Of a stretch of DNA of 64,000 nucleotides, positions 2,494 through 64,000 are shown in pieces. The translations under genes were made by a program, and so were the position numbers. Where the stretch lies: the NCBI RefSeq assembly GCF_000172155.1, contig NZ_ABIZ01000001.1, positions 5,675,105 through 5,739,104 of the forward strand, written 5' to 3'. This DNA is from Verrucomicrobium spinosum DSM 4136 = JCM 18804. Its GTDB lineage: Bacteria; Verrucomicrobiota; Verrucomicrobiia; Verrucomicrobiales; Verrucomicrobiaceae. The notes under the pieces are model-generated. The model did no database searches and was not told where the DNA came from. It saw only the letters and a list, made by a program, of their open reading frames with translations. Every line of letters starts with the position of its first letter. Position 1 is the stretch's first letter.

Positions 2494-2744
2494 GCCACCT
2501 CTGTAGGCCATTCAGCATCAAATTGCAAGAAGCTCATCTGCGAGCGGCACCCTGAATCAAACCGGGAATCGGCGAACCCTCGCCGCTTTTCTGCTGCAAA
2601 CCCCTCATCCACAACGCGCGAGCGCCTCCCGGTTGGCGCGCAGCACCTGACCGCTCGCGAGTCAGCGCGGGCGCTCCTGCTCTGAATGTTTTGGTGAATG
2701 TCAAAGATCGCCTCCTTCCCTGTTCCCCTTTCCCCTGCGGTGCT
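2494..2744 (-). promoter_or_regulatory. Probable CRISPR leader
   Basis: This 251-bp stretch lies between the cas2 stop and the newest-side repeat (2458-2493). It has no convincing gene. By position it should hold the array promoter and the integration signals. It contains a dyad CTGAC...GTCAG around 2647-2665. I could not pick a clear promoter, and the role is inferred from position and from array polarity. Confidence 0.55.
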
Positions 2745-3065: not shown

Positions 3066-3090
3066 GGGGAGGAGGGAGTTAGGGGTTGGA

Positions 3091-3162
3091 AGTTAAATGT
3101 TAAATGTTAAACGTTATGTGCCGTGAGCCTGAACCTCTTAACCCTCTTAACCCTCTTAACCC
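3091..3162. repeat. Simple tandem repeats between cas4-cas1 and cas2
   Basis: Two low-complexity runs sit in the 109-bp gap: GTTAAAT-type 7-mers at 3092-3116, and three exact copies of the 9-mer TCTTAACCC at 3136-3162. They lie upstream of cas2 on the transcribed strand. Slippage-prone DNA in front of an adaptation gene could vary its expression, but nothing in the sequence proves this. Confidence 0.6.
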
Positions 3163-3174
3163 TCTTCCCTCCCC

Positions 3175-5718: not shown

Positions 5719-5882
5719 CGCAACAGGTCAGCGGGGCTGCCAATATGCGCCCTTATTCGCAATAGCAAAGCAAAAAACATGCACCCCCCTGCAACAAACG
5801 CCAGGCACCGGGGCCACAGGCTCAAGGGAGGCATCACATCCACCTCCACACAGCATGAGCTGGTGCCACCGGCAAGCCTCGT

Positions 5883-6539: not shown

Positions 6540-6568
6540 GCGCTTTGGGGCAGATATGACCGATGACG

Positions 6569-8137
6569 CTACGGGTCCTCCACAGGAACAAACAACCCCA
6601 ACCCGAAATGGGAACCATACCCGAAGGCGAGCGGGCCTTGAACTGGCTCGTCGAACGTAAGCGTGAAAGCGCCAGACTCGTTGCCACGACTCCCACCATC
6701 GCCATCCGGGCGACGGCTTTGATATTGGAGGCAGCGAAGGGTTCTGCGACTGGGCAGCGTGATATGCCTTTCCTGATGTGAGTGGGCATGGGCGAATTGC
6801 GCATCAAGCTGAAGGAGTCGTTCCAAGTCTTGGACTACTCCGCCTATTGGGCGACCTTGCTCGTCAAGTTTCAGCCTTCCGTCTCGGAAAGTTTTCGTGT
6901 GCCGTGTTGAAACCACAGGGGTCAGTGAATGCCAGACTTTAGACGCGGCGAACAACTTGCAATCTGGAAATGTTTGGGCGTCGCCGAGGCCGACGAGCAC
7001 CAAGCGAATATCATGTCCGCCATAGCCCCAGACTTTGTTAAGGCGACGCAAAGCGATGCGGGCTTCGTCATCAAAACCTGTCTCAGCGAACACAGTAATG
7101 TGGGTAATTTCATCGCGTTTCCCATTGGCTTCGCAGAAAATGAAAGCGTGATTCTGGCCGGAAAGAGGCTCCCCTGTCACAGCATTCTTACCGCTGAAAA
7201 CGATGACGCTGGCCGGATGATCCGCCATAAAGCTGCACAATGACTTATGTACGCGATCCGCTACTGACACGGCTTGCGTGATTCGTGGGGACACGTTGCT
7301 CACCACTTGATAGCGGGCCACGGTGGGCAGACTCTTGCTGCTGGCGCGGCTTTCGCGTGGGGCGGCCGCGAATACGTCCACAGGTCGGGTGTAGTTTGTG
7401 AACACTGCTCCTGGCGGCAAGTTCCAGCCTGCAGCTTGCAGGACACTTGTATCGGCGTGTAAGGCCGCGAAGACATCGGAGGGCAATTTGGCTTGTGAGC
7501 GTGCCGCTTTCTTTGATGCAGCCTTCTTAGCAGCAGTTTTCTTGGAGGCAGGAGCCTTGGAGGTTTGCCAACCAGCGTAAAATTCAGAAGACATAGGGAG
7601 TAGCAGCCGCACAAGTTCCTGCCTTTCTCCCATGGTCTCATCGTCACGTAGGGGCCTAGTATTGCTGGGCCGGAGCAAAGTACTGTTCACCCTTGCTACG
7701 ACGAGGCTTTCCGCACGGCCAAGGTAGCCAATGCGGGCAGCCAAAAGATTTAGCGTGTCGAGCTGATCCACCGGGAGCTTCACATCCCAAGCAACGAGAA
7801 CAGGTTCACTTGAGGCGATTTGAACAAAGGCATCGAAGATTTTCGGCTTTTTGTTGGGATCCAGAGAGTTGATGGGCATGTAGTGCCGCGTATGCCCCAG
7901 AGTAGCACGAGGGAGGTGGAAGACGGGCTGTACAGCAGCGAGGCTGTGAATGAGGATGCGCACTTGCTGCTCCTCCAATTCTTTGGTCTCGCGTGCTTTC
8001 CAATACCATGTTGCCACCAAAGCGCGTAGTATCCGCCATGGGGAAGGCGGCCACTCAACTGCACCCTCATTGACGTGACGCCCCCACGGCGTCGCATGAT
8101 AGCGCCCGGCGGGAAACTCAAGTTCGAGAACGGTCAT
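6569..8137 (-). CDS. csb2: Csb2, type I-U/I-G Cas5-Cas6 fusion protein
   Basis: Csb2 (GSU0054 family) is taken to combine the Cas5 backbone subunit and the Cas6 crRNA-processing nuclease of the type I-G Cascade. The 522-residue product opens with the family signature (LELEFPAGRYHATPWG, then EWPPSPWRILRAL) and ends with a Gly-rich stretch (GYGSHFGLGLF, 506-516) like the RNA-binding loop of Cas6. Between the halves, residues 193-217 form a Lys/Ala-rich segment (KKTAAKKAASKKAA), a histone-tail-like insert that may be a linker contacting RNA. It starts 3 bp after the csb1 stop, so the two are translationally linked. The next gene downstream is the HEPN-like gene. Confidence 0.93.
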   Translation of the reverse strand: MTVLELEFPAGRYHATPWGRHVNEGAVEWPPSPWRILRALVATWYWKARETKELEEQQVRILIHSLAAVQPVFHLPRATLGHTRHYMPINSLDPNKKPKIFDAFVQIASSEPVLVAWDVKLPVDQLDTLNLLAARIGYLGRAESLVVARVNSTLLRPSNTRPLRDDETMGERQELVRLLLPMSSEFYAGWQTSKAPASKKTAAKKAASKKAARSQAKLPSDVFAALHADTSVLQAAGWNLPPGAVFTNYTRPVDVFAAAPRESRASSKSLPTVARYQVVSNVSPRITQAVSVADRVHKSLCSFMADHPASVIVFSGKNAVTGEPLSGQNHAFIFCEANGKRDEITHITVFAETGFDDEARIALRRLNKVWGYGGHDIRLVLVGLGDAQTFPDCKLFAASKVWHSLTPVVSTRHTKTFRDGRLKLDEQGRPIGGVVQDLERLLQLDAQFAHAHSHQERHITLPSRRTLRCLQYQSRRPDGDGGSRGNESGAFTLTFDEPVQGPLAFGYGSHFGLGLFVPVEDP

Positions 8138-8140
8138 GGC

Positions 8141-11625
<3,485 letters not shown>

Positions 11626-11631
11626 GGCGGT

Positions 11632-14061
11632 TCAAGCGGCTTGAGAGTTGGTGCAACCTAGCGATCTGGCTTCTGAAGCAGAGGCACGCATGTCGGCTGC
11701 GCGAAGAAGAGTTTCGAAAAATGCCAAAGCGAATGGTCCGAAGGCGTCACGCAGAGCGACTGTTCGAGCAAGCCAGGATGGCCCCTTGATTCCTTCACCG
11801 AGATGCATGAAGCTCAGATCAAGAACGGTTGGGTGAGTGGTAAGGCCTGGGATCGCAGGTAATTCGTCGCGATCCCACACACCCCTAGCGAAGAGGCGCT
11901 CGGGTTCGCTTCCGTCGCCTTTCTCATCAGGCAGCGAGCGAATGGAGAGGCGTACCTTTCCATGATGCGCAGCAATGATATAGGCAATGAAATCGCAATA
12001 CTCAACTTTGGGATTGCTGGCGAGCCAGGCGAGAGCGGAGGCAAGTTCATGACGGAAGCCAATGCGACCTTCAGGGAGACGGCGCGATTTATCCTCAGAC
12101 TTCGCCTGGAATGTGCCATCAAGCCCCGATGCATCGCCGCAGAGGAGGGTTTGGAAGATTTCATGCGTCTTTCCCACATCGTGCCAGAAAGCGGCAATGT
12201 GGAAAGCTGCGGCGAGCGGGGCATCGAGGCCCAACGCCGCGACGAGAGCATCTGTTTGGGTGACGACATTCTTCACATGCGCGTCATAGGAGAGCCAGTA
12301 GCCTTTGCGGGAAAGAGGATCATCCTTGTAGGATTCCTCGCTATTTGTGTTGGGGAGTAGCGGTTTGAGGCGGTCCTTCGCATCACCAGTCCAACCGAGC
12401 TCGTCATGATAACCGCCGCAGTCTGTGGCTATGAGATATATGGCACCAGAGCGGGCGTAGTCAGCAGCCTCCCAGCGTTCTTCCAAAGCATTCCAGGTCC
12501 AGACGCGGCCTTTATTGTTCTTAATGAACTTGGCGGCCTCCTGTCGTGGCACGCGACAGAGTTCGTGCCGTGCGGGTGCAGGCTCTTTCTCGGTGGGCAC
12601 CGCTTTTTCCGAGATATCCCGCCAGAAGAATTGCACGTCATTGTCCTCTCCGTCTCGAATGTACCGCGAGATGTCGAGATCCTGACCACAAAGGTCTGGG
12701 GTTGTGTCAAACAGGTCCAGCAAGTCGCGACGACGGATAACGGGGCGGATCACAGGCACTTCTGCCACGCTCACACCCGAAAGCGACTGCGGCCCCACGT
12801 CATTGAGCTTCTGGAGCGCTGCTCGGGACCGCGCCAACTCCTCGATAGAATACGGCAGCACGAGTTCGTCCTTTTCATCCTTAGGAGCGACATCCACCCA
12901 GATGAATTCGGCATCTGCAATGTCGCCATAGCGATTGCAGCGACCGATGCGCTGCACGATCGAAGACCAAGGAGCCAACTCGGAGATCAACAGCCTGGCC
13001 GAGACATCCACTCCGGCCTCCACAGCTTGGGTCGCGATGACAATGCGATCCCCTTTGCCAAAGAGCACCTTGGAATGACGTTCCCGGTCCACTGGCCGGA
13101 ATCTGGAGTGGATCAGTGCGATATTTTCCGATTTGACCCCAAGCCGCTTGTCCCGAAGCGCAGCATAAAGTTTCCTCGCCCGGATCACCCTGTTGACAAC
13201 GACCAGAGTGAGGGTGCCCTCAACATGCTTGTCTTTGATCAAACTGGCCAGCTCTTTGGCATGCGCGTCTTTGGTCTTCGATTCGAGGACATATCTGGAC
13301 TTAGTGACAGGCTTCCTAGCTTCGACTTTTTGCCGAACGGCGTCAGATTGGAGCTCCTCGATTGAAAGCTCAACTTTGGGCCAGCCTTCCGCAGGCACGG
13401 GATGATCTACGGTAGCCAGACGCCCATTTTCCAAAGTAGCACTCATCCACCAAGTAGGGCAGCGCCCTTCCTTTTTCCACTGAGCCAGGTGTCGAAAGCC
13501 GTCGAGTTGCGCACTCGTCTCCACACCTACCCCCATCAACTGCGTCTCATCAAGCCCCCAGAGGCAGTCATTGTTCAGCAAGCCGAAGTGCATGGGCCAG
13601 CGGTAGCGGCTCATGCCGTAGCCGCGGTTCAAGGCACGACTGAGGAGCATGTCCTGCGTGCCGATGAGAATGGCGTTCTCCTCTGGGTACAGGTCCCAAT
13701 CCACGGTTTCCTCGCCCCCCATCAAGATATGGAGGCCGACTTTGCCTGTGTGACCTTTGTCCGCCTTCGGGTCCCATTCCCTGTTTCCCATCTCCTTGAG
13801 CCAGTGCCGGCAACAATCTCTTGTCTGCTCTACGAGCGTCCTCATAGGCAGGCAGTACACCAGGCGGCGCGGCCACTTGGGATCCTGCAGGTGCACGCGG
13901 TTGTAGAGCCACGCCATCACGACGGCAGCGGTTTTACCCAAGCCCGTGGGCACGGAAATGAGGCGGGACTCGCACTCGCTCTCCGCCAGGCGTTGCTGGT
14001 AGTCATAGGGGGAGCGCCCCGAATTGAGCTGAGCAAAAAAGTCTGGAAATGATTGGCTCAT
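11632..14061 (-). CDS. cas3: Cas3 helicase-nuclease with C-terminal HD domain (type I-U/I-G)
   Basis: Single-strand DNA translocase and nuclease recruited by Cascade to degrade the target. Helicase motifs are present: Walker A VPTGLGKT (37-44), motif II variant LDETQ (170-174) in place of DEAH, SAT (207-209), and motif VI QRIGRCNR (370-377). The HD nuclease lies after the helicase, as in type I-U/I-G: DAH at 593-595, FWHDVGK at 625-631, FRHE at 669-672 and AAHHGK at 697-702. At 809 residues it looks complete. It starts 18 bp after a small unknown gene that probably shares its promoter, and is the first recognised gene of the cas operon. Confidence 0.95.
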   Translation of the reverse strand: MSQSFPDFFAQLNSGRSPYDYQQRLAESECESRLISVPTGLGKTAAVVMAWLYNRVHLQDPKWPRRLVYCLPMRTLVEQTRDCCRHWLKEMGNREWDPKADKGHTGKVGLHILMGGEETVDWDLYPEENAILIGTQDMLLSRALNRGYGMSRYRWPMHFGLLNNDCLWGLDETQLMGVGVETSAQLDGFRHLAQWKKEGRCPTWWMSATLENGRLATVDHPVPAEGWPKVELSIEELQSDAVRQKVEARKPVTKSRYVLESKTKDAHAKELASLIKDKHVEGTLTLVVVNRVIRARKLYAALRDKRLGVKSENIALIHSRFRPVDRERHSKVLFGKGDRIVIATQAVEAGVDVSARLLISELAPWSSIVQRIGRCNRYGDIADAEFIWVDVAPKDEKDELVLPYSIEELARSRAALQKLNDVGPQSLSGVSVAEVPVIRPVIRRRDLLDLFDTTPDLCGQDLDISRYIRDGEDNDVQFFWRDISEKAVPTEKEPAPARHELCRVPRQEAAKFIKNNKGRVWTWNALEERWEAADYARSGAIYLIATDCGGYHDELGWTGDAKDRLKPLLPNTNSEESYKDDPLSRKGYWLSYDAHVKNVVTQTDALVAALGLDAPLAAAFHIAAFWHDVGKTHEIFQTLLCGDASGLDGTFQAKSEDKSRRLPEGRIGFRHELASALAWLASNPKVEYCDFIAYIIAAHHGKVRLSIRSLPDEKGDGSEPERLFARGVWDRDELPAIPGLTTHPTVLDLSFMHLGEGIKGPSWLARTVALRDAFGPFALAFFETLLRAADMRASASEARSLGCTNSQAA

Positions 14062-36604: not shown

Positions 36605-37075
36605 TTAGAACTCTTCAGAGCCGACAGTGAAGGTCACGTTGGCAATTTTGGCCGCAGCCAGTGCGTTCATCACTTGAATGATGCGCTCATACTTGGTCTG
36701 CTCTTCCGTTTGCAAGGTGACGAGCACCTTGTTGTTCCGGAGGTCAGCATCCTTGCGAAGTCTGATCAGGCTATCTGTCAGAGAGGGGAGCTTGGGATCC
36801 GTAGGGGAATCAAACTCCTCATCATTCATGGCGACCGCACCATCTTCCGAGATAGCAATCAAGATCTCGTCCGGAGGGGTTTCTGCTACGACAGGGTTGG
36901 CCGTCACAGCCCCCGGCAGGGCGGTTTTCAACTCATGTTCGACCTTCACACTGTTGGCCATGACCATGAAAAACAGCATGATCACAAACACCACGTCGAT
37001 CATCGGAGCGATCTGGAACCCTGTCCCGATCTGCTCCACTTCAATTTGTTTTCGGCCTTTGCTGCTACCGCTCAT
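36605..37075 (-). CDS. exbD: ExbD/TolR-type biopolymer transport protein (second)
   Basis: Partner of the ExbB/TolQ proton channel; one transmembrane helix and a periplasmic domain. The 156-residue product has the conserved helix start IAPMIDVVFVIMLFF (about 22-36), whose Asp carries the proton. The periplasmic part (about 45-156) has normal size, with IAISEDGAVAMNDEEF and a C-terminal VMNALAAAKIANVTF. Differs from the other ExbD (37106-37540) throughout, so these are distinct subunits, not a recent duplicate. It is the last gene of the operon. Confidence 0.93.
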   Translation of the reverse strand: MSGSSKGRKQIEVEQIGTGFQIAPMIDVVFVIMLFFMVMANSVKVEHELKTALPGAVTANPVVAETPPDEILIAISEDGAVAMNDEEFDSPTDPKLPSLTDSLIRLRKDADLRNNKVLVTLQTEEQTKYERIIQVMNALAAAKIANVTFTVGSEEF

Positions 37076-37105
37076 AATGGATGGGTGAGATTGGCTCTTT
37101 AAAAT

Positions 37106-37540
37106 TTACTGGTTCAAGGCCGAGAAGGCCAGATCATCCATGCCTGCTTCACCCAACACACTCATGGTGCGCTGGATTTCCACCGCAGGAAGACGTCTGT
37201 CACCACGAATGATGACTCGATAGTCCGGTGCTTTGGCCTTCTTCCCCTTGAGCACCTCCACCAGCGCGCTGACATCATCATAGGTATTCCCCTCGAAGTT
37301 CAACTCACCCTTCTGGGTCTTGGGATTCCACTTCACATTCAGAGCGCCTTCCGACATCTTGCTTTTCTCCTTCTTCTTGGCCTCGGGTGCCGCTGGCAAC
37401 TGGATGTCTTTGTCCAGTTGGAGCACCTCCGCCGTGGTGATGCTCATGAAGAAAATGAGCAAGACAAGAAGACAGTCGATCATCGGAGCAATTTGAAACT
37501 CCGGTTCGCCGCTCTCCATACTGCCGCCGCCGCCGCCCAT
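37106..37540 (-). CDS. exbD: ExbD/TolR-type biopolymer transport protein (first)
   Basis: The 144-residue product has the transmembrane stretch IAPMIDCLLVLLIFF with the proton-carrying Asp and a periplasmic domain containing a Lys-rich loop (AKKKEKSKM). It begins with a Gly run (MGGGGG). The C-terminal domain has the family's VIIRGDRRLP strand. It is 30 bp upstream of the second exbD and 92 bp after exbB. Two different ExbD proteins for one ExbB are common in Planctomycetota and Verrucomicrobiota, where they may form a heteromer. Confidence 0.92.
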   Translation of the reverse strand: MGGGGGSMESGEPEFQIAPMIDCLLVLLIFFMSITTAEVLQLDKDIQLPAAPEAKKKEKSKMSEGALNVKWNPKTQKGELNFEGNTYDDVSALVEVLKGKKAKAPDYRVIIRGDRRLPAVEIQRTMSVLGEAGMDDLAFSALNQ

Positions 37541-37588
37541 AGTGTTAAAAAGGTAAGGGTTAACTGACTGACTGACTCAAAATAATAT

Positions 37589-37607
37589 GCAGGGGCTACG
37601 CCCCTGC
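37589..37607. other. Hairpin between exbB and exbD
   Basis: A perfect 8-bp inverted repeat (GCAGGGGC / GCCCCTGC) with a 3-base loop lies between exbB and the first exbD, followed on the minus strand by the A/T stretch ATATTATTTTGAG. It could reduce read-through so that the channel subunit is made in excess over ExbD, or stabilise the upstream mRNA. A TGAC tandem run (37563-37577) is next to it. Confidence 0.5.
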
Positions 37608-37632
37608 TGGAACTGACCTGCTCTAGAATCCA

Positions 37633-38526
37633 TTACGCAGGAAGTGCTGTAGCAGCAGCATCTTCATCGGACACCCAGTTTGGCCGGGCCGCGAAGAACT
37701 CTTCTTCACCCACATGGCAATCCTTGAGGTCTTCGTAAGGCATCTTGCGGAAGAGGCTCACCACGATGTCCTGGCAATAGTGGATCGAACCCTGAAGACG
37801 GTTACGAAGCACATAGAACATCATGAAGGCCGGAATGGCGATGGCCAGACCGGAGGCCGTCGCGATCAACACTTCACCGATGGCTGCCGAAAGGCCGGAG
37901 GGGTCACCCACGCCGGATGCACCAAGGTGTTCGAAAGCGGTCACCATGCCCGTCACGGTACCGAGCAGCCCCACCATCGGAGTGCACACACCGATAACGG
38001 AGAGGTAGTTGATCCGGGTGGTGGTAGCGGCGTTGAACTTGTTGAGTTCGCCCATCATGGCGTCTTCGGTGGCATGCTGGCCGTCTCCAATGAAACTCAG
38101 GGACACGCGCACCGTGTCGCTGAAGGCAGAGGGGTTGTTCTTGCAGTGCTGATAGGCACCTACATAGTCCCCCATACGGAAGAGATCCTTCGCCCCGTTC
38201 ACATGGGCGTCAGGAGCAAGCTTCTTCTTGCCGGTGCGGATCCAGAGGTCGGTGGAAAGCCAGATGGTCAACACGGAAAAGCCGAGAATGGGGTACATGA
38301 CCCAGCCGCCTTCCTTGAACTTGTCGAGCATGGACTTCTTATGCACGATCGGGGCCGTTGAAGCGCCTTCCGCCGGAGCCGGGGCCTCCTCTGCATGAAG
38401 TGCCGAGATACCAAACTGCAAACCACCGAACGCGAGGGTGGCGCAGACCAACAGGCGGCCAAGCCTAAGTTTCAAGCGGGAGCGTGTGATGTGCATGGGC
38501 AGATTATACATGGTTTGACGTTGCAT
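37633..38526 (-). CDS. exbB: MotA/TolQ/ExbB-family proton channel protein with signal peptide
   Basis: Channel protein that, with ExbD, turns the proton gradient into motion of a periplasmic partner. The 297-residue product has an N-terminal signal peptide-like segment (LLVCATLAFGGLQFGISALHA), a first membrane helix (WVMYPILGFSVLTIW), and the conserved pair of helices with GVCTPMVGLLGTVTGMV and AIPAFMMFYVL. Signal-peptide-bearing ExbB proteins are typical of this bacterial group. Its ATG shares one base with the stop of the preceding gene (TAATG), so translation is coupled. Internal ATGs (38511, 38496) are alternatives. Confidence 0.95.
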   Translation of the reverse strand: MQRQTMYNLPMHITRSRLKLRLGRLLVCATLAFGGLQFGISALHAEEAPAPAEGASTAPIVHKKSMLDKFKEGGWVMYPILGFSVLTIWLSTDLWIRTGKKKLAPDAHVNGAKDLFRMGDYVGAYQHCKNNPSAFSDTVRVSLSFIGDGQHATEDAMMGELNKFNAATTTRINYLSVIGVCTPMVGLLGTVTGMVTAFEHLGASGVGDPSGLSAAIGEVLIATASGLAIAIPAFMMFYVLRNRLQGSIHYCQDIVVSLFRKMPYEDLKDCHVGEEEFFAARPNWVSDEDAAATALPA

Positions 38527-39428
38527 TACTTGGATTCAGTTTTCGTTGGGGAATCTTTGCCACCAGCCGCTGCCGGCCGGTCTGGCTTGTTTTCACGACC
38601 GTTGTAAATGACCATTTCTTTTTTGGCCGTTTCAGCGGTTTCGGAACCGGGGTAAGCTTCGGCAATGCGCTGGTAGAACCCCACGGCATCCTTAAAACGC
38701 TCCATCTTTGTGAGCGTACGGGCGGCGGCAAGCTCCGCCTGAGGCACCAGTGCTGCCTGGCTGCCGTAAAACACGGGCACATGCAGATAGGCCATCAACG
38801 CGGGTTCCCAACGCTCTTTCCGGGTGTGAATCTCTGCAACGGTCATCCAGAGACGGGCGGAGATTTCTGCATCCAGAGTGTCCTTCAAAAGATCTTCCGC
38901 CTGACTCAGAATGGCATCCTGGTCGCTCGAGGTGCGACGGGCCATGTTGAGCTTCAGAATCCGCACCTTGAGCTTCTTCTGTTCGTCCCATTTCATGGCT
39001 TCCACTTCAGGGAGCACACGAATCAAGGCATCAAAGTCACCTGCCTGATCCAACGCTTCCACGTGAGCGAGCGAGATGTCATTGTAGGGGCTGCCAGGAA
39101 TAGACTTGAAGGGCTTGAAGAACTCTTTGGATTTGGCGAGCACCTCAATGGCCTCCTTGGCCTTGCCTTCACCCAGCATGGCCTGGGCTTCGAGCACCTC
39201 GCGAACTTCCGGCCACTCCAGTCGGGCGATGTCGGTGAGATTGATGCTGGCCTTGGCCTCAGCACCATTGCTCATCTTGATCGTGCGGCTGACCTTGCCT
39301 CCTTCGACGCTAAAGCTACCAAAGGGAATGCGGTCGTTGTTCTTGAGCACGAGCGCCTGGGCGTGAAGCGCCGGCGCACTGAGAGCCAAACAAGCCAGCG
39401 GAAACAACAGTGATTTGAAAGAAAGCAT
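38526..39428 (-). CDS. Exported TPR-like protein
   Basis: A 300-residue periplasmic protein: signal peptide (MLSFKSLLFPLACLALSAPALHA), an N-terminal beta-strand segment (LVLKNNDRIPFGSFSVEGGKV), and TPR-like helices (RERWEPALMAYLHVPVF, then FKDAVGFYQRIAEAYPGSETA). The Lys-rich tail may be a contact site. It overlaps the ExbB start by one base and lies 15 bp after the larger TPR gene, so it is cotranscribed with them. TPR proteins next to ExbBD probably form the scaffold that transmits movement; the partner is not visible here. Confidence 0.85.
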   Translation of the reverse strand: MLSFKSLLFPLACLALSAPALHAQALVLKNNDRIPFGSFSVEGGKVSRTIKMSNGAEAKASINLTDIARLEWPEVREVLEAQAMLGEGKAKEAIEVLAKSKEFFKPFKSIPGSPYNDISLAHVEALDQAGDFDALIRVLPEVEAMKWDEQKKLKVRILKLNMARRTSSDQDAILSQAEDLLKDTLDAEISARLWMTVAEIHTRKERWEPALMAYLHVPVFYGSQAALVPQAELAAARTLTKMERFKDAVGFYQRIAEAYPGSETAETAKKEMVIYNGRENKPDRPAAAGGKDSPTKTESK

Positions 39429-39443
39429 GGATCGAGAGGAAAA

Positions 39444-42440
39444 TTAGTTGCTGGTCTTGCTCAGGAGGGCCTTGCCTTCATTGAATTCGGGGAACTCCGT
39501 GATGTCCTTCTGGGCAAGCATTTGCTGGAGGACCGTCCGGGCGCTTTCTTTGTCGCTGAGTTCGATGAAGCACTTGGCCGCACGGAGATAGGCTTGGGCA
39601 AGCACGGCCTTGTCGCGACGATAGGCAAGGATGATGCGCTGATAAAAGCTCACCGCCTTCTTGAGATCTTTCTTCGCCTCAGAGGCTTCGCCCAACCCCA
39701 ACAGGGCGGCGGGATGGGCACCGCGCCATTCCTTGGTGGCCTGGATGGTGGTGAAGACCTTCTCAGCTTCGTCATACTTTTTCAAGGCCAGGAGAGCCTT
39801 GGCCTTGCCCAGTGTTGCCTCAAGGATGCTGGAGCTGGAGGCATACTTCTCAATGGCCTCGTTGTAGAGGTCGAGAGCCTTCTGGTACTCCTTGTTGTTG
39901 AACTCGATGTCCCCCAGACCCACTGGAGCTTTGTCACCAAATTCACTGTTGGGATACTTGGCACGCAACTGCTGGAAGCAGGCTGCGGCCTTTTCTGCAT
40001 CCCCCTTCTTGGTCAGCATTTCACCCAGGCCAGCGAGAAGCAGGGGGCTGAGTTCCTCAATCTTTGCGGCATCGGGAATGATGCTCATGAGGTTCTCATA
40101 CTTGGCCACATCACGGAAACCACGGGCGATCAGCGCGCGACCATAGAGGATGCGGGCTGCCGCCGTGCCATTCAGGAGCCCATTATCGCCTTGCGGTGTC
40201 ATGAGCGTTTTGAACTCGGTCTCCACTTCCTCAAAAGTTGGGCCAGGGGCGGGAGTTGGTGCCGCCGCAACGGCCGTATCAGTTGCCTTGCTGGCATCCG
40301 CCGCCTCGCCTTCCTTCTTGGTGGCGTCGGCAGGCGTCACGGCCGCTGGTTTGGTCGCAGGAGCTGCGGCGCGGGGACGTTTCTTGGGCACCATCATGGT
40401 GACAAGCTGCTGAATGAGGACTTCCACCTGCTCATTGGCTGGATTGCCAAGGTGAGGCGCCATCGCACCAGCCACCAGCTTGCGACCTTCATTCAGTTTC
40501 TCCTTGGCCTTGTCCGGCATGCCTTCGCTCTCCAGAGACTTGGCTTCGCGCTCTACTCCCCGTGTAATCCAGTAAATGGCCTTTAGGGCAGAGGGCTTGT
40601 CCTTGTTCGCCTGATAGTAGCTGGACCACATCTGGGTCAGCTCTTTCCACATGTTCTTGTCCACCATCAGGTTGGTGGCTGCGTCGATTGCGTAGTTGAG
40701 CACGTCTTCGGTCTTGGCCTTGTCCACCGCATTCCGGTAGGCCTCGAGGCACTTGGCGGTGTAGTCGATCTTGCCACTCTCGTCCACCATCTGGCTGTAA
40801 ATGTCGCCCAGAAGCGACCAGACTTGACCCACGTTCTGATCGTTCGGGGCTTCCACCACCAGCTTCTCGAGCTGCTCCATGGCGTCTTTTTTGTCGCCGC
40901 CCTGGAAGTCGATGAAGGCAAGACGGTATTTGGCGTCCACCAAGTACTGCCCCTTGGGGTTCCCAGCGATGTACTCACGCAGGGCCTTCCGGGTCTTCTG
41001 CGAATCGTTCTGGAAGAAGTAGCTCAGCGCGATGCGGTACTCAGCCTCGTCTTTGTAGGCGGAAGTCTTGTTAAGGCTGATCAGTTCTTGGAAAGCGAGA
41101 CGACAGTCGTCGAAGCGTTGGGATTCGAAGAGCACCACCCCGAGTAGATAGTTGAGACGCTCTTTGTCGGCATCTTTGGCGAGCTTGGCCCGCTCGAACG
41201 CTTTGATGGCAGCCTCGATATTGCCACTTTCAAAGGCCAGCGAACCGAACATGTCGGTCACCTGTCCGATGTTTGCCCCCTCAGGGAACTCGTTCATGTA
41301 CTTCTCACAGAGAAGATAGGCACGACCGGCACGTTGCAGGCCGGCGTTGCACACGATCATGCCGAAGAGACAGCGATCACGATCTTTGTTGTCTTTGAAA
41401 TCTTCGTAGATGGTCTGAAAGGCCAGAAGGGACTCATACAAGCGGCCCATCTCATAAAAGCACTGGCCAAGACGATAGATGATGGAGGCATCGTAGTCCT
41501 TCACCCCTTCGATATCTGCGAGGATCTTCTTGTTGGTGTCCAGCAGGCCAGCCGCTTCTTCCTTGCTGAGCAGTTTGCCCATGAACTGAACCCGACCACC
41601 TGCGGCAATCTGGGTCTGCCACTGCTCAATTTTTGAAATACGAGCCTTCTGAATGGCCACCAGTTCGCCCTGGCGACGCATGCTTTGATAGGCACGGAGG
41701 GCCTCCCCATAACGCTTCTGCTCCAGCATGGCATCCCCCACCTGCTGGGAGAGCACATTCAACTGAACGACGCTTTCATCTGCAGAAGCCCCTGCACGGA
41801 GCTTTTCCATCATCTGGCCAGCCTTGTCAGTGTCGCCCTTGCCTACGTAGATTTCAGAAGCCATGAGGATGGCCTGCTGTTGCTCTGCGGTAGGCGTTCC
41901 CTGAAGGTCTTTCAGCACCACTTCAAGAATGCTGAGGGCCTCATCAGGCTGGCCGCCCTTCTTGTGATGATACGCGATCATCAAACCTGCGCGGTCCCGG
42001 AGTTCCGGCACGGCAGCGGCTTCCTTGAGGGAAGCGATCCCTTTGTCGGCATTGCCTGCGTTCAGGTAGGCCTCGCCAACGGCCATTTTCGCATCATTGA
42101 GACTGTTACTCTGGGGAAACTTCTTGATGAAGTCTTCGAAAAACTTAATGGCCTCCGCCCACTGCTTAAGATTGAAGTGCGCCGCACCTTCAAGGTACAT
42201 CACAGCCTCGAAATCTTTGTTGCTGGTGGCGGTGTGAATGGCACCAATTTTTTGCAACGCCACGTCAAAGCGGCCCTGGCCAAACGCCGCCTGGGCCTCG
42301 GAGAAAAGCGCCTCCATTTCCTGCTCCTTGTTCATCGGCGCAGTTGCCGGTGCAGCAGGAGGGGTCGCAGGAGGTGCTTGACCGCAGACAAGAGAGGCGG
42401 AACCAACGGATAGAAGAGCGAACAGGAAAAACGGTCTCAT
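39444..42440 (-). CDS. Large exported TPR protein
   Basis: A 998-residue protein with a signal peptide (RPFFLFALLSVGSASLVCG), a Pro/Ala-rich linker, then many tetratricopeptide repeats over the whole length. Clear units include WAEAIKFFEDFIKKFPQS, AAIKAFERAKLAKD, and near the C-terminus YQKALDLYNEAIEKYASSSS and LKKAVSFYQRIILAYRR. A Ala/Thr/Pro-rich stretch (about 700-750) divides the repeats into two arms. Start at 42440 is the one giving the signal peptide. First gene of the operon (followed by the small TPR protein, ExbB, ExbD, ExbD). The protein probably forms a long periplasmic scaffold. Confidence 0.88.
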   Translation of the reverse strand: MRPFFLFALLSVGSASLVCGQAPPATPPAAPATAPMNKEQEMEALFSEAQAAFGQGRFDVALQKIGAIHTATSNKDFEAVMYLEGAAHFNLKQWAEAIKFFEDFIKKFPQSNSLNDAKMAVGEAYLNAGNADKGIASLKEAAAVPELRDRAGLMIAYHHKKGGQPDEALSILEVVLKDLQGTPTAEQQQAILMASEIYVGKGDTDKAGQMMEKLRAGASADESVVQLNVLSQQVGDAMLEQKRYGEALRAYQSMRRQGELVAIQKARISKIEQWQTQIAAGGRVQFMGKLLSKEEAAGLLDTNKKILADIEGVKDYDASIIYRLGQCFYEMGRLYESLLAFQTIYEDFKDNKDRDRCLFGMIVCNAGLQRAGRAYLLCEKYMNEFPEGANIGQVTDMFGSLAFESGNIEAAIKAFERAKLAKDADKERLNYLLGVVLFESQRFDDCRLAFQELISLNKTSAYKDEAEYRIALSYFFQNDSQKTRKALREYIAGNPKGQYLVDAKYRLAFIDFQGGDKKDAMEQLEKLVVEAPNDQNVGQVWSLLGDIYSQMVDESGKIDYTAKCLEAYRNAVDKAKTEDVLNYAIDAATNLMVDKNMWKELTQMWSSYYQANKDKPSALKAIYWITRGVEREAKSLESEGMPDKAKEKLNEGRKLVAGAMAPHLGNPANEQVEVLIQQLVTMMVPKKRPRAAAPATKPAAVTPADATKKEGEAADASKATDTAVAAAPTPAPGPTFEEVETEFKTLMTPQGDNGLLNGTAAARILYGRALIARGFRDVAKYENLMSIIPDAAKIEELSPLLLAGLGEMLTKKGDAEKAAACFQQLRAKYPNSEFGDKAPVGLGDIEFNNKEYQKALDLYNEAIEKYASSSSILEATLGKAKALLALKKYDEAEKVFTTIQATKEWRGAHPAALLGLGEASEAKKDLKKAVSFYQRIILAYRRDKAVLAQAYLRAAKCFIELSDKESARTVLQQMLAQKDITEFPEFNEGKALLSKTSN

Positions 42441-58725: not shown

Positions 58726-59415
58726 TCAGAATCCCGGGCGGTAGGATCGTGACTTTCCAGTGAACGGATCGGTTTGGATAATGTAGAAGTTGTCCGGCAG
58801 TGCTGCTGCCGCGGTATTGGTGTCCTCTACGAGGGTAAAGAAGCTATTGGGCAACGTCTGGTACTGGAGCGCAGCAATTCCTCCAGCCGCGCTGGCGACC
58901 GCTTTACATGTTCCATCTGGGAGAAACCGCATCGCACTATAGCTCGCTCCAGTAACTCCAGAGTTGGCGTCCGAATCTGCAAATGTACCACCAACCAAAG
59001 TAGGAGACATCGAGGGAGCTGCCGAAATATAGACTCCATCAGGAAGCTTGACCGTTTCACTGATCTTTGTGATCTGTTCAGTGTTGGCACCGTCCGGGCT
59101 GCTCACTTTGAAAAACTGGTAACCTCTGAACCCTACCACTCCTGTACTGGGATCAGTGTACTGGTAAAATCTAACCTCAACAGGATAGCCCTGGCTGAAC
59201 GCTGTTTGCTGAGCCTCAGACATGGCACCTAGCAGGCTTTCACCAGCTCCCGTCATTCTATTTCCCCGGAGAGCGCCAAAAATCGAGGGTCCAGCAAAGG
59301 CGAGCAGGATCGCGATGATGGTAACGACCAGCAACATCTCAATCAGCGTAAACGCTGGAGAACCTGCCTTCCGGGGGTGCCTCCCCGGCAATGAAAAGAA
59401 AGGTGACATCTTCAT
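58726..59415 (-). CDS. Verru_Chthon cassette protein D (pseudopilin-like)
   Basis: A 229-residue protein with a type IV pilin-like N-terminus: a basic leader (PGRHPRKAGSPA), then FTLIEMLLVVTIIAILLAF with the expected Glu at +5. The residue before the cleavage site is Ala instead of the usual Gly. The body (LLGAMSEAQQTAFSQGYPVEVRFYQY, then GFRGYQFFK) matches the cassette D family named in Verrucomicrobiota. Last gene of the cassette (A-B-C-D on the minus strand, gaps of 35, 3 and 21 bp). Function unknown; by analogy with pseudopilins it would be part of a secretion or assembly filament. Confidence 0.88.
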   Translation of the reverse strand: MKMSPFFSLPGRHPRKAGSPAFTLIEMLLVVTIIAILLAFAGPSIFGALRGNRMTGAGESLLGAMSEAQQTAFSQGYPVEVRFYQYTDPSTGVVGFRGYQFFKVSSPDGANTEQITKISETVKLPDGVYISAAPSMSPTLVGGTFADSDANSGVTGASYSAMRFLPDGTCKAVASAAGGIAALQYQTLPNSFFTLVEDTNTAAAALPDNFYIIQTDPFTGKSRSYRPGF

Positions 59416-59436
59416 AGTACCCGTACCTGCAAAGTT

Positions 59437-60639
59437 TTAGAGGCTCCACTTTGCCTGCTTCAACGAAACCACAGTGGTAAAAACGCGGAAGTTATAATGC
59501 TTGGAGGTTAAGAAAGTCTTCAGGGTTTCCAGATCGGCTTCGTAAGAACCCGCCATGGAAAACCCTGCACCCGACGAACCGAGAAGATTGGGGGAGGTGC
59601 CACCTGCCGCACCCTCTGCCAGGATTTCAGCGGTCTGCTGATCTATGGCGACCAGCGTGAGTTTCAACGCGGGAGGCAATTGATGCTGCGTGCCTTGCGG
59701 CCCAAGTCCAGCTCCAGTATTGGCGACCGCAGTAGAATCGAACTCATAGTTGGGAGCAATCCAGGTCGGAGCCCTGTTGCCAGCATTGTTTCCTTCCACT
59801 ATTGGAGAGATGATCAGGGCGATGACATTGTCGGCCACAGGCCGGGTATAACCATGCCCTGTTGCAGCGTCACCCGTGGTGGCAGTATTAGAAATGGCAT
59901 CCTGGAACCATTCTTTTGAGTGGTTGACCGAAGCGGCCGTGGTGTCGCCGAAGTCAGGAACGATCGGGCGAAGGTCCGCATCATAAATTCTATTCGCTTC
60001 AGCCGGTGGAGCGTACTCCATCAGACGATAGCGGAAGCGGGGTCTGACCGTCGTCACCCCTGCCAGGATCGCTGGACGAAACGCACTGTCGTCTCCCCAA
60101 CTGACAAAGTACCCACGACCACAAAGGAGGTTCACCATGTTCGCCGTGTCCGCCTGGGTCACCCCATCGGCAGTTGGATTGAAGTTGGTCACTCCCAGGG
60201 GCGCCTGAAAAAAGACCCCAAAACCAGGATAGTTGGATGCAGTGGCACCGGTGTTAAACAAGCCGTCAGTGCGTCCACAAACAAATTGCAACTCGGACTT
60301 GCGGACATAGGAAACCGCCTCCCGACGGGCTTCACCAATGATATCGCTGGTCAACTGGTTGAAGCCGTTCTGCCAGTACGCATTTAAAGTGGCCTGCCCC
60401 AAATTCCTCGACATTGTATCGAAGGCTGCCCGGGCTTCGCGAAATTGCGACACGCGCGAACTAGTCCGCACCCAGGTCTTCTGCACCATGGAGAGCACAT
60501 TGGCCACCAAGGTCATCAAAATGGCCAGGATGGTCATCGACACCAGCAACTCGACCAGGGTGAAACCTGGCAGCCGCCTCCTGAAGATCCGCCTTCCTCC
60601 ACTGGATGGAATAGAATGTAATTGGCACATCGTCATCAT
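59437..60639 (-). CDS. Verru_Chthon cassette protein C (pseudopilin-like)
   Basis: A 400-residue protein with a prepilin-type N-terminus: RRRLPGFTLVELLVSMTILAI, with Gly before the cleavage site, Phe +1 and Glu +5. The body has LSMVQKTWVRTSSRVSQFREARAAF, then FDTMSRNLGQATLNAYW, typical of family C. It is larger than ordinary pseudopilins, with an Ala/Thr-rich beta region. ATGs at 60636 and 60630 are alternative starts. It starts 3 bp after protein B stops, so the genes are translated together. Confidence 0.88.
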   Translation of the reverse strand: MMTMCQLHSIPSSGGRRIFRRRLPGFTLVELLVSMTILAILMTLVANVLSMVQKTWVRTSSRVSQFREARAAFDTMSRNLGQATLNAYWQNGFNQLTSDIIGEARREAVSYVRKSELQFVCGRTDGLFNTGATASNYPGFGVFFQAPLGVTNFNPTADGVTQADTANMVNLLCGRGYFVSWGDDSAFRPAILAGVTTVRPRFRYRLMEYAPPAEANRIYDADLRPIVPDFGDTTAASVNHSKEWFQDAISNTATTGDAATGHGYTRPVADNVIALIISPIVEGNNAGNRAPTWIAPNYEFDSTAVANTGAGLGPQGTQHQLPPALKLTLVAIDQQTAEILAEGAAGGTSPNLLGSSGAGFSMAGSYEADLETLKTFLTSKHYNFRVFTTVVSLKQAKWSL

Positions 60640-60642
60640 GTT

Positions 60643-61116
60643 CTATCTCCCCTTTGCGATGTATTGCACAAACGTCCGATAGTTACGGCTGTTGGGCTCA
60701 GAGAAATCGAAATTGCGCTGCTGAGAACTGGTCACCTTGATGGTCACCTTTTTAAGTGCGGTTTCGTCCGTCTTGGCACCAGGCATCCGGAGGTTGGTAG
60801 AAGCAACCTCGATCTTGGCGGAGAAAGTGCGACCAAGCTCATTGGCACTCTCCATCTCCACACCCTGATCGTCGTAATATTTCATTGAATCCCCAACGGT
60901 GACGAGATTCCAGGATGTCTGTTCCAAGTTCCGGATGATTTGCTCGACCAAGTGACGTTCAGAGACGATCTGACCGGTCTTTCTCGACATCTCCAACCCC
61001 TGAGGCATGAGCCCCAGGATCGTAAGAAGTCCAAGGGAAGCGATCCCCATGGCGAGCGTCACCTCGACCAAGGAGAAACCCAACCATTTTTTAGGGAGTT
61101 TGACAGAAGATTTCAT
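60643..61116 (-). CDS. Verru_Chthon cassette protein B (pseudopilin-like)
   Basis: A 157-residue protein with the prepilin-type N-terminus KKWLGFSLVEVTLAMGIASLG (Gly before the cleavage site, Glu at +5). The rest (LMPQGLEMSRKTGQIVSERH, then VEQIIRNLEQTSWN) fits cassette protein B. I chose the ATG at 61116; an earlier one at 61149 would add 11 residues before the basic leader. It follows protein A by 35 bp and precedes C by 3 bp. Confidence 0.87.
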   Translation of the reverse strand: MKSSVKLPKKWLGFSLVEVTLAMGIASLGLLTILGLMPQGLEMSRKTGQIVSERHLVEQIIRNLEQTSWNLVTVGDSMKYYDDQGVEMESANELGRTFSAKIEVASTNLRMPGAKTDETALKKVTIKVTSSQQRNFDFSEPNSRNYRTFVQYIAKGR

Positions 61117-61151
61117 GGCAGTATGTCTGAAGATTCGGGGGGGGGTCACAC

Positions 61152-64000
61152 TTAAGGAGCAAAACGCTTCGATTCGAGCGCACGGAACTGGTAGAACGTA
61201 TCCAACGGGAGCTCATTCAGAGGATCACTGGATGCAGCGTAGTCCGGAAGAGGCTTACTCGTGTCGGTCGGATCAATGAACCGTTCGATCAAAGTCGATC
61301 CACGATATTCGCTTAGGACAGCGTCTCTTTCGACATCAAACGTACCCGGTGCCGTGGAACGAGCCTTCTTAATGACTTGAGACCGCACATGAACCCGGAA
61401 CGTATTGCTGCGCGTGGTGATGCGAGCGTACAGGTTCGAATAGGGACCCTCGCGAACATTTTCGCCAGTGGCAGCATGCGATTGCCAGAAGGCCTGCATC
61501 AAGGTCTTGCGCTGGGATTCCGAAGTCGCTCCCGTGAAGTAACCAGCAGCAAGGGGATCGTTTGCCGCAAGCCCCGTCTTGGGAATGAGGAACACTTCGC
61601 AAATCTGGCTGGCAGCGCGGAAGAGCCCCTTCTGGTTGGTGGCAGCCGATTGTCCTTTGAAACGCTCCTGGAATTGGAGAAGCGTCTTCTCCACATCAAT
61701 GGGGCGGTGCCAGTATTTGCCGTCGGAGTCTGCCCAGTAGATGTCCCCAGCCGTATTGGTGAAGTTGCTGGTCTTGAAGCCCTTGGCCAGATAGTTGTTA
61801 TTAATTTCCGTATTCGGGATTGCCGTGAGGAACTCGCCCTTCATCAGAGCATGCAATCCGGTGGCACGTTTGATGTGGGTAAACGGAAGAATCTGGTAGT
61901 TCAAATTGATCCTGCCAGCCTGAGAGAGCGGTTCACTGATGGCATACGGCTCCACCACTGGCATGAAGAACAGATCAAGCAGGTAATGGTCCCGTGGATT
62001 GCGTGCCCCAGGATGGATGTCTTTGGCTGTGGTGACGTTCTTCACGTAGGGGCGGAACAGCAGCGTCTGCCACGGATGGGGCACCGCTGGATCAAGCCCC
62101 TTGCTTCCAGGCACCGTCATTCCGGGCCACACCGCTGTCGGCAGAGAGCCAAACATGACGGGGGACGAGATCATCCGGTTTGGCGTCATGAAGATTCCCG
62201 TACGCCAGTCATCGGTCTGGCGCCAGGATTCGTAAAAGTAGCCCGAACGGTAGAATTTTGTGATGTTGTTGCGATTAAAACTCCCGGCGAAATAGTTACC
62301 TTCATCAGGTTTGTTGATGTACGCGCCTTCACGGGCGTTGCCTATTCCAGCATCAAAATCAGCAAAGCTGTTGGCAACCGTTGCCGAAGCCGCCGAGCCG
62401 GGAATGTCCGGCTGCATGCCATCAGCATAGTTGATGCCGGCCACTAGTTGTAGAGCAAGCGACCTAGTGTTGTAGGTTGGAGTCCCATCAGTCGCTAATG
62501 GCTGCGGATTCGCAGGATCCTTGGCCACTTTATAACCCGCCTCATAAGTGCCATGGAAACTCGTGAAATTGTGAGCAACCCTAAGGTCAGTGCGATCCCA
62601 CATGGGGTGTGGCTGCCAGAGATTCATGGTGGGTTCTTTCCGTGCCGCCACGATTCGATAGTCCCCATCGGCAGGAATCATGGTCCTCTGAACGTCCGAG
62701 TTATTGTATGGCGCCGGAGGGGCAAGTCCCAAGCCCGTTGAATAAGAATTCGCAGGGGGAGAACTGACATCGCCATTCGTATCCAATCGGCCACGAACGA
62801 TCTGATGTTGGGCTGACTTCAAATAGTCATTGGTCTGAAGGGACGGTGTCTGCGCGTTTTCCCAGAAGGGGCCGTTCGGATACTCTTCTGATGGCTTGAG
62901 TCTCTGATAGCGATCCACCACGCCCGCATAGTTGAAAGCCCACCAATGGGGGCCCTGTTGGGCACGTGAATAGACCCACCGCCCACTTCCATCCTGGGAC
63001 AATTTATAAAAGAGGTTTTGAGATTGGCCTCCATCTGCACACGCCAGATCGGGAACAGGAGTGGTCAGCGGCGCATTGGGAAATCCGATTTTGATCTTTT
63101 GGATCGCTGACTTTTGTGGATTTTGAAGGTCATGCGTATTCCAAACTTCGACAACAAGCGGGGTAACGTTGGGATCAGGGAATGTGATCGTAAGTGGCGT
63201 ATTACGCTTCACCGTGATGAAGTCGCTCACAAAGTTCATGTTCGAAAGATTGGTGTGGTAGCGGGAAACGCTATCCGGATCCGAGGAAAAATCAGGGTCG
63301 CTTGGCATTTGCGTTCCCGCAGCCGTGATGGCTCTGATCCTCCGTCCACCCGAAATCACCCGCGGCGGGGCATGCCCCCCAACAGAGTAGGTGTTGTCCT
63401 GCTCGTAAATGTTCCCGTTCGACTTCAGCGAAAAGTTTGACGTGTTCTGGAACAGGGATTGACCGTTGATCTTGATGCCGCGAATGAAAGCAGAGTCAAT
63501 CACGAAGGTGAACTCCGGGTAGAACTTCGTCCAACCCAATGCTGGACAGAAGGCCTCTAATGTCAACATTGCCTGAATCCGTTTTTCATCCGTTGCCAAT
63601 GGAGTATTGGGAGCCAGCGAGAGGTTCCAAAATTCAGGGCGGAAACCTGGGTGCCGAATAGGATGGAAGTCGGTACTGGCTGGATTCACCCCATACTTGG
63701 CAAAGATTGTTCCAAACGGAGGCGCACCTCGCAGGGGAGGAAAGTTGGAATACCACCGCAACTGATTGCTATAAGTGCCAGCGTTGTTGGGAACATTCAA
63801 TTCATTGTACCCGTTGGACCGCAATCCGATGTGAGTGTTCTGGGCATTGGGCATGACGCCATCTTCGATTTTCATGGCCGACTTGCCACCGCTGATGACC
63901 CCGTTGTAGTTCACCGAGAAATCATCATTTTCACCGTCAGCAGTGCAGATGATATGAAGCCCAGCTTCAGAAAGCGTGAACATGCGGCCCATACCCATGT
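61152..64000 (-). CDS. Verru_Chthon cassette protein A, 3' part (gene runs off the window)
   Basis: At least 948 residues of a large protein whose start lies beyond the right end of the window. I identify it mainly from its place upstream of proteins B, C and D; the large size (over 1000 residues) also fits family A. It is rich in Asn, Pro, Tyr and Trp, with no membrane segment in the visible part. It ends 35 bp before protein B. In this cassette A is the only member with no pilin signal in the part seen here; it may be the substrate or a large surface subunit. Confidence 0.75.
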   Translation of the reverse strand, partial: MGMGRMFTLSEAGLHIICTADGENDDFSVNYNGVISGGKSAMKIEDGVMPNAQNTHIGLRSNGYNELNVPNNAGTYSNQLRWYSNFPPLRGAPPFGTIFAKYGVNPASTDFHPIRHPGFRPEFWNLSLAPNTPLATDEKRIQAMLTLEAFCPALGWTKFYPEFTFVIDSAFIRGIKINGQSLFQNTSNFSLKSNGNIYEQDNTYSVGGHAPPRVISGGRRIRAITAAGTQMPSDPDFSSDPDSVSRYHTNLSNMNFVSDFITVKRNTPLTITFPDPNVTPLVVEVWNTHDLQNPQKSAIQKIKIGFPNAPLTTPVPDLACADGGQSQNLFYKLSQDGSGRWVYSRAQQGPHWWAFNYAGVVDRYQRLKPSEEYPNGPFWENAQTPSLQTNDYLKSAQHQIVRGRLDTNGDVSSPPANSYSTGLGLAPPAPYNNSDVQRTMIPADGDYRIVAARKEPTMNLWQPHPMWDRTDLRVAHNFTSFHGTYEAGYKVAKDPANPQPLATDGTPTYNTRSLALQLVAGINYADGMQPDIPGSAASATVANSFADFDAGIGNAREGAYINKPDEGNYFAGSFNRNNITKFYRSGYFYESWRQTDDWRTGIFMTPNRMISSPVMFGSLPTAVWPGMTVPGSKGLDPAVPHPWQTLLFRPYVKNVTTAKDIHPGARNPRDHYLLDLFFMPVVEPYAISEPLSQAGRINLNYQILPFTHIKRATGLHALMKGEFLTAIPNTEINNNYLAKGFKTSNFTNTAGDIYWADSDGKYWHRPIDVEKTLLQFQERFKGQSAATNQKGLFRAASQICEVFLIPKTGLAANDPLAAGYFTGATSESQRKTLMQAFWQSHAATGENVREGPYSNLYARITTRSNTFRVHVRSQVIKKARSTAPGTFDVERDAVLSEYRGSTLIERFIDPTDTSKPLPDYAASSDPLNELPLDTFYQFRALESKRFAP

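Follow-up and report, generated by a model that had tools for sequence, protein, structure and literature searches.

Candidate exchangeable-tip force transducers beside an ExbB-ExbD-ExbD operon of Verrucomicrobium spinosum

The DNA analysed here, referred to as the window, is a stretch of 64,000 nucleotides of Verrucomicrobium spinosum DSM 4136 (contig NZ_ABIZ01000001.1, positions 5,675,105 to 5,739,104), whose genome is one contig of 8.22 Mb. Its subject is a cluster of genes for one ExbB-type and two ExbD-type motor subunits, two TPR-type proteins and two membrane-anchored proteins that end in an alpha-alpha toroid. A preliminary description, made from the sequence without searches, had listed these seven genes and proposed the toroid protein, not TonB, as the moving part; the analysis indeed recovered all seven, on the minus strand (Table 1). 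It will be argued that the five-gene operon is quite probably a motor with its TPR partners, and that the moving arms would be proteins docked in the manner of TonB and TolA but carrying exchangeable tips.

Table 1. Features of the motor cluster and of two paralogous operons in the same genome
Feature	Position	Strand	Remarks
TPR1, large TPR protein	42506 (TTG) or 42440 (ATG)-39444	-	1020 aa from TTG; 7 TPR_6 stretches
TPR2, small TPR-like protein	39428-38526	-	TPR matches all sub-threshold; weak Mul1B relative
ExbB/TolQ-like motor subunit	38526-37633	-	PF01618, 81.3 bits
Hairpin with T-rich tail between ExbB and ExbD1	37607-37589	-	
ExbD1	37540-37106	-	PF02472, 65.1 bits; membrane Asp (APMID, by eye)
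ExbD2	37075-36605	-	PF02472, 70.7 bits; membrane Asp (APMID, by eye)
Terminator-like hairpin between ExbD2 and toroid A	36562-36532	-	12 pairs + T tail
Toroid A, candidate anchored force transducer	36361-34553	-	anchor helix 115-140, His125, linker 141-246, alpha-alpha toroid about 255-585
Toroid B, toroid A paralogue (82% identical)	34446-32608	-	anchor + linker DNA nearly identical to toroid A
Paralogous motor operon L233	about 7.60 Mb		arm L233:8683-10455 with SAM + PA14 domains over cut-off
Paralogous motor operon L235	7.72 Mb		vWA-like tip, 22.5 bits vs cut-off 27

The motor cluster and its transcription

Membership of the three motor subunits in the ExbB/ExbD family is indicated by Pfam scores over cut-off and by retention of the ExbB threonines and the ExbD membrane aspartate. 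When the ExbB of the window was aligned with 61 close relatives, S84, T190, T223 and P232 were kept in 62 of 62 sequences; T190 and T223 are taken by us to be the pore threonines of the motor. By eye, this ExbB also carries an N-terminal extension resembling a cleavable signal sequence (ALHA-EE) ahead of its first membrane helix. The TPR naming of the preliminary description stood for TPR1 and, at the thresholds used, not for TPR2. The latter scored 28.6-29.2 bits with the Mul1B model NF052542, below its cut-off of 75, and was rejected on this score as a member of the Mul1B family proper. Toroids A and B just passed the PF13243 cut-off of 26.1, with 27.2 and 26.3 bits, respectively.

The TAATG coupling of TPR2 and ExbB described earlier was confirmed, base 38526 being common to the stop codon of the first and the start codon of the second. 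The common transcript proposed with it fits the five motor and TPR genes, judging from the short gaps of 15, -1, 92 and 30 bases from TPR1 to ExbD2, although a hairpin, smaller than the one after ExbD2, stands between ExbB and ExbD1; the toroid genes lie behind a terminator-like stem. Terminator-like sites numbered 13, against 11.1 expected in shuffles, so that the case for this particular site comes from the strength of its one stem. The 12-pair stem makes a single transcript suit these five genes better than all seven, and in the window toroids A and B probably have a transcript of their own. It is to be noted that two genomes of the same genus carry a second ExbD2 copy, 73-75% identical, between ExbD2 and toroid A (L055:8709-9275 and L056:12833-13354); the window has no such copy, and the terminator and a 243-base gap stand at that place.

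The proposed absence of TonB from the cluster was borne out, its proteins giving no TonB_C match (toroids checked at E<=1); lacking this domain, the toroids were rejected as members of the TonB family. TonB_C (PF03544) was found in a single gene of the genome, at C1:1597555, with no second one at E<=0.001. A dedicated TonB elsewhere as the true partner of this motor is disfavored by the position of that sole gene, which adjoins an ExbB and ExbD of its own. By eye, the Ser-x3-His of the toroid arms is missing from the anchor helix of this TonB (L239:9553-10314, 1.6 Mb).

The docking end and its distribution among relatives

The anchored proteins found next to such motors were compared in an alignment of 34 sequences with toroid, vWA-like, PA14-like or cut tips, of which L182, L204 and L205 are cut by contig ends; L314, L230_549 and the L071-L150 copies, including several of the window's own family, were left aside. 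A histidine was present in the anchor helix of 34 of 34 proteins, preceded four residues earlier by serine (28/34) or alanine (6/34), and the helix had no other invariant position. In a fuller count the histidine was found in 45 of 45 motor-adjacent anchored proteins (35 end in a toroid, the remaining 10 in another or a cut tip), 42 of them by filter and three, L206, L233 and L234, by eye from their helices. Just behind the helix, V-D-F-L/M-P could be recognized by eye in 24 of the 34 aligned proteins. These features correspond to parts of the known transducers as far as the cited texts describe them. The TonB/TolA motif is given as Ser-x3-His-x6-Leu-x3-Ser, its leucine and last serine being less conserved in Ton; Ser16 and His20 of TonB contact Ser34 and Trp38 of ExbB, and Trp38 touches Pro190 (PMC12215075). 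TonB also carries an ExbD-binding D-box behind its anchor helix (PMC10907165), and V-D-F-L/M-P would be a motor box at the place of this D-box. The TonB-like character that had been ascribed to the toroid anchors is thus seen in the Ser-x3-His, with added support from the motif behind it, and the assignment of the toroid protein to the place of TonB is well supported as far as sequence can tell. The resemblance to TonB-ExbB-ExbD and TolA-TolQ-TolR covers the motor families, the ExbD membrane aspartate, the anchor Ser-His and a disordered linker, whereas the window has no TonB C-terminal domain and has instead two unlike ExbDs and TPR partners.

A closer precedent is a new class of force transducers, namely vWA proteins of the Planctomycetota-Verrucomicrobiota-Chlamydiota (PVC) group with a TonB-like (SHLS) helix beside TPR, tolQ and paired tolR genes, as they are presented in Williams-Jones et al. 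2025 (PMC12204202). In the window, as in these, a TPR gene, a TolQ-like gene and a pair of TolR-like genes precede the gene of an inner-membrane protein that has the Ser-x3-His helix. Also shared are the motor-box-like motif, a linker about 100 residues long and a tip other than that of TonB; the L235 operon, with its vWA-like tip, resembles this published kind. Unlike them, the window has alpha-alpha toroids as tips instead of a vWA domain, and its genome also holds PA14-like tips and unlinked arms that share a docking segment. The main text of PMC12204202 does not contain the words toroid, squalene, prenyltransferase or terpenoid, and no toroid or PA14 tip on such transducers was found in searches of open-licence literature.

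The co-conservation of the cluster in Verrucomicrobiota, suggested as a check in the preliminary description, was examined around TPR1 and toroid genes, some loci having been chosen for holding a toroid. Of 141 genomes of this taxonomic order, 134 had a toroid match and 64 a TPR1 match (E<=1e-30), and both were present in all 46 genomes searched of the window's own family. The order of the window, TPR first and then ExbB with two or three ExbDs, recurred in 59 operons outside the window, including L235, the small TPR gene of which was not recognized by the model used; ExbB came first in 18. Operons were considered evaluable for a neighboring arm when they had been chosen by TPR1 (L181-L232) and the stretch examined went on for 2.5 kb or more past the last ExbD; several further loci reach a contig edge just behind ExbD2. 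Among the 32 evaluable operons, 19 had an anchored gene no farther than 3.5 kb from ExbB, and two more (L231, L232) had one just upstream of TPR1. In two third-family genomes (L069, L287), the operon itself includes the anchored toroid gene, with ExbD2 and TPR1 on its two sides.

The neighborhood of motor and toroid also recurs in distant genomes. Phylum-wide, a toroid was found at E<=1e-20 in 149 of 288 genomes, and in the first 40 by rank outside the order, the position of the best toroid was set against that of every ExbB found. ExbB lay 1.0-2.4 kb upstream on the same strand in 28 of these 40 genomes, against a roughly 0.3% chance for one genome by a simple estimate, which speaks against the possibility, raised earlier, that toroid genes occur mostly without ExbBD. 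Among the 12 misses, the toroids of G154 and G268 start less than 700 bases from an upstream contig edge, and G302, G249 and G330 have, by eye, another listed toroid beside ExbB. In the first 20 genomes, 13 of the 14 adjacent cases had two ExbD places between ExbB and toroid, and the fourteenth, G294, at least one. It was also observed that the contigs of many drafts (e.g., L107, L113, L118, L123) begin or stop within the toroid gene, often at the linker, as is expected of within-genome repeats; in many metagenome assemblies, such genes have probably been lost or broken up.

Within the window's own family, toroids away from any motor are common beside the linked ones. For a count of such unlinked toroids, a helix and at least 5 kb examined on both sides were required, which gave 47 proteins and set aside 32 helix-less rows (mostly fragments), 16 duplicates and one short toroid with a signal-like N-terminus. 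The histidine was kept in 27 of the 47 (26 by filter, L114 by eye), mostly from the window's family or from family f4, in genomes with a TPR1 operon elsewhere. It was absent from the other 20, which have the helix without histidine at the site, and the notion that all toroids are motor arms was rejected on this ground. Nineteen of these 20 belong to f2, the family of Akkermansia and relatives, and one (L290) to f3; the converse notion, that unlinked toroids mostly lack the histidine, was therefore true only outside the window's family. None of the 13 genomes with histidine-less unlinked toroids (12 of f2, one of f3) had a TPR1 match at E<=1e-30, and in f2 genomes with a motor of the window type, the neighboring toroids carry the histidine (L066, L067, L223-L225, L227, L229, L230). 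Loss of the histidine thus appears to be tied to genomes that lack the TPR1 of the motor. On a tree of a reduced set of 59 toroids, L066 and L067, which have both histidine and motor, were nested among toroids with neither. For this tree, eight toroids were skipped, L305 and L317_12667 were dropped and the L071-L150 copies were left out; L314 was coded as non-adjacent, its ExbB neighbor being on the other strand, and L209, L212 and L213 as histidine-bearing by hand. At three loci of Akkermansia-type genomes (L301, L302, L303), two to four toroid frames stand in tandem, with the helix but without the docking histidine, and no motor was seen within the 20 kb examined.

Tips and further arms in the genome

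The structure of toroid A was predicted with AlphaFold2 from 34 sequences, which placed a helix at 115-140, followed by a disordered linker and a toroid with a predicted local distance difference test score (pLDDT) mostly near or above 90. The closest fold match was squalene-hopene cyclase (8pak; Z 24.2, root-mean-square deviation 3.1, 282 residues), although sugar epimerases and the GH76 family were nearly as close (Z 22-23). The toroids share the alpha-alpha fold and QW-like repeats with squalene-hopene cyclases; unlike these, they are single toroids on a membrane arm, and the cyclase motif DxDD is absent from A and B and present in only 3 of 51 toroid domains. They were therefore rejected as terpene cyclases. 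The thioester motif GCGEQ was likewise absent from A and B. The toroid contains many invariant aromatic and charged or polar residues, which suggest a ligand pocket, either for lipid or for glycan.

At least two types of tip exist besides the toroid. Six further genes of the same genome match toroid A in anchor and linker only (49-61% identity), and their tips are vWA-like in three and PA14-like in three. The vWA-like tips fall below the Pfam cut-off, L046 (E 0.099) being named from its DVSGSM, and the PA14-like tips gave Pfam PA14 at 14 bits or no match. A model was built for one of the three PA14-like proteins, with which the others share 56 and 52% identity, and the best fold match of this model was the PA14 sugar-binding domain 6m8m (Z 12.7, root-mean-square deviation 2.9, 160 residues). 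The nearest of the 10 ExbB places of the genome to any of these six genes is 79 kb away. Over the 50 residues of the docking segment, their products share 66-80% identity with toroid A, but only 18-28% with the arms encoded in the two paralogous operons. Since the motor subunits of L233 are still 53-56% identical to those of the window, docking ends diverge more than motors do. The SAM domain of the L233 arm, which lies ahead of the membrane helix, is presumably cytoplasmic. That all eight arms use the motor of the window would be the simplest reading of the common docking segment.

Comparison of codons offers a view of how such a set could arise. Among same-residue codons of toroids A and B, 6 of 160 differ over residues 131-290, against 119 of 248 over residues 291-602. 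Two relatives of the same genus repeat this pattern of like anchors and diverged tips, while L057 and L058 show the opposite, with differing anchors and agreeing toroids. From these contrasts, anchors and tips seem to recombine.

The tips also bear on the alternative, which we regard as unlikely, that the toroid is a membrane-tethered enzyme of terpene or sugar chemistry and that its place beside the motor reflects co-regulation only. The nearness of the fold to squalene-hopene cyclase and (alpha/alpha)6 sugar enzymes, the invariant aromatic and polar residues, and the existence of unlinked toroids with and without the histidine all agree with an enzyme. However, DxDD is missing from both toroids of the window and from 48 of 51 domains, the histidine is the sole invariant residue of the anchor helix beside motors, and unrelated tips occur on the same anchor.

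Two regions of the window outside the cluster may be mentioned. At 1420-14061, a repeated coding pattern (FNEAAPFRVRR) adjoins large genes, which by eye we take to look like a CRISPR-Cas locus, and at 58726-63998, there is a gene run that to us resembles pseudopilin cassettes, two of its products having pilin-like N-termini (GFTLVELL, AFTLIEML).

Proposed mechanism, alternatives and meaning

We propose that ExbB and the ExbD1/ExbD2 pair would form a proton-driven motor of the 5:2 type, on which the arms may dock by their TonB/TolA-like Ser-x3-His helix, while the V-D-F-L-P motif just behind the helix would engage ExbD. The Gly-rich linker would then span the periplasm and hold an exchangeable globular tip at its end, which in the window is the alpha-alpha toroid and which elsewhere in the genome, on nearly the same docking segment, is predicted to be vWA-like or PA14-like. 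Taken together, the recurrent gene order, the histidine with its motif and the shared docking segment make such a docked arm, instead of TonB, the probable moving part.

Several observations weigh against this proposal. In the window itself, the strong terminator-like stem splits ExbD2 from the toroids. Eleven of the 32 evaluable operons had no anchored gene in the stretch examined, an anchored gene adjoins only 2 of the 18 ExbB-first (MUL1-like) operons, and L221 and L222 consist of TPR1, TPR2 and an anchored vWA-like gene with no ExbB or ExbD. The likeness to the TonB/TolA motif is incomplete, since the full SHLS pattern is not seen (position +7 is Ala or Gly in 31/34 and +11 is Val in 25/34), and a tryptophan beside S84 of ExbB does not reach 90% conservation. 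The vWA-like and PA14-like arms were found via the anchor, so that their anchor conservation is partly built in; that of the toroids is independent of how they were found. The 27 unlinked toroids with histidine imply that this residue needs no neighboring motor, and four of them (L068, L288, L289, L320; family f3) come from genomes without a TPR1 match. Finally, the association of histidine and motor adjacency on the tree drew on few independent changes, with four pairs, of which two to three were concordant and none discordant, and was not significant.

Another machine to be considered is one for envelope constriction or stability in the manner of Tol-Pal, with the motor and TPR proteins as TolQR and CpoB and the toroid in place of TolA. 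The models with the highest scores on ExbB and the ExbDs are those of tolQ and tolR, TPR1 exceeds the cut-off of the YbgF model (128.7 versus 90.1 bits), and toroid and TPR1 are present throughout the 46 family genomes searched. On the other hand, the curated cut-offs of tolQ (58 versus 221 bits) and tolR (52 and 58 versus 127 bits) are far off, and no Pal or TolB was seen beside the operon by eye in the lists of open reading frames, no model search having been made for them. Three such operons and several tips in one genome would also be odd for a division system, and we consider this reading rather improbable.

A gliding machine comparable to Agl-Glt of Myxococcus would use the same parts to move surface adhesins. 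As that system is outlined in PMC9389320, AglR with AglQ and AglS amounts to one MotA-like and two MotB-like proteins with TonB-like arms, a make-up that the window shares, although its arms bear other tips; the PA14-like tip, by its fold match, could also suit gliding. However, the tips are expected to be periplasmic, behind an inner-membrane anchor, and no adhesin or Glt-like gene was identified, no search having been aimed at them, which leaves gliding with little probability. Equally doubtful is the view that the anchored proteins are regulators or static scaffolds holding the motor, while a different, unlinked protein moves: operons without a neighboring anchored gene agree with it, but the force-transmitting TonB and TolA use the same Ser-His contact, by the account in PMC12215075, and the genome offers no second TonB_C gene at the threshold given above.

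Returning to the docked arms, their use is less certain than their mechanism. The use that we prefer, tentatively, is an energized handling of glycans, or their import, at the outer membrane, since the fold of the PA14-like tip is a sugar-binding one and all five core parts have counterparts in MUL1 of Akkermansia muciniphila. MUL genes are said to be needed for the accumulation of mucin products in internal compartments in the account of PMC12418764; excerpts of PMC13174399 likewise make glycan accumulation in A. muciniphila dependent on mul genes, call MUL1 Sus-like and report no MUL1 synteny in aquatic Akkermansiaceae. The likeness consists of ExbB, two ExbDs and a large and a small TPR protein, as seen in L272 of an Akkermansia-type genome. 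It differs in order (ExbB-ExbD-ExbD-TPR-TPR in L272, TPR-first in the window) and in the last TPR gene, which in L272 is Mul1B at 292 bits, while TPR2 stays below the cut-off; moreover, L271 and L272 have no anchored gene inside, and the toroids there are unlinked and without the histidine. Within the taxonomic order of the window, 49 of 141 genomes have a Mul1B match above the cut-off, and the 18 ExbB-first loci hold ExbB, two ExbDs and the large TPR gene together. In G138 and G108, the Mul1B-type and window-type TPR2 lie about 7.5 kb apart; there, at L273 and L281, the Mul1B-type TPR pair and the window-type operon stand back to back on opposite strands, an arrangement that suggests an old duplication of one system.

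A wider possibility, held at somewhat less than even confidence, is that one motor serves as a tool holder. At least eight arms (two toroid, three vWA-like, three PA14-like) share the docking segment and may compete for, or switch onto, the same ExbB-ExbD1-ExbD2, while recombination would keep the docking ends and swap the tips. Force could thereby be delivered without TonB to many outer-membrane targets, perhaps for the intake of large glycans.

The vWA transducers having been published in 2025, what is new here are the folds of the toroid and PA14-like tips and the presence of one docking end on arms encoded across the genome. Within the searches made, this widens the tips of such force transducers from the published vWA to three, namely toroid, vWA-like and PA14-like, and provides a signature for finding others: a helix with Ser-x3-His, in many cases followed by V-D-F-L-P, encoded next to ExbB-ExbD-ExbD. 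In Verrucomicrobiota, the energizing of outer-membrane work and the uptake of large polysaccharides are largely open, and substrate acquisition in aquatic Akkermansiaceae is called largely understudied in the excerpts of PMC13174399. If true, the tool-holder motor would be a general, TonB-independent means of force delivery in Verrucomicrobiota.

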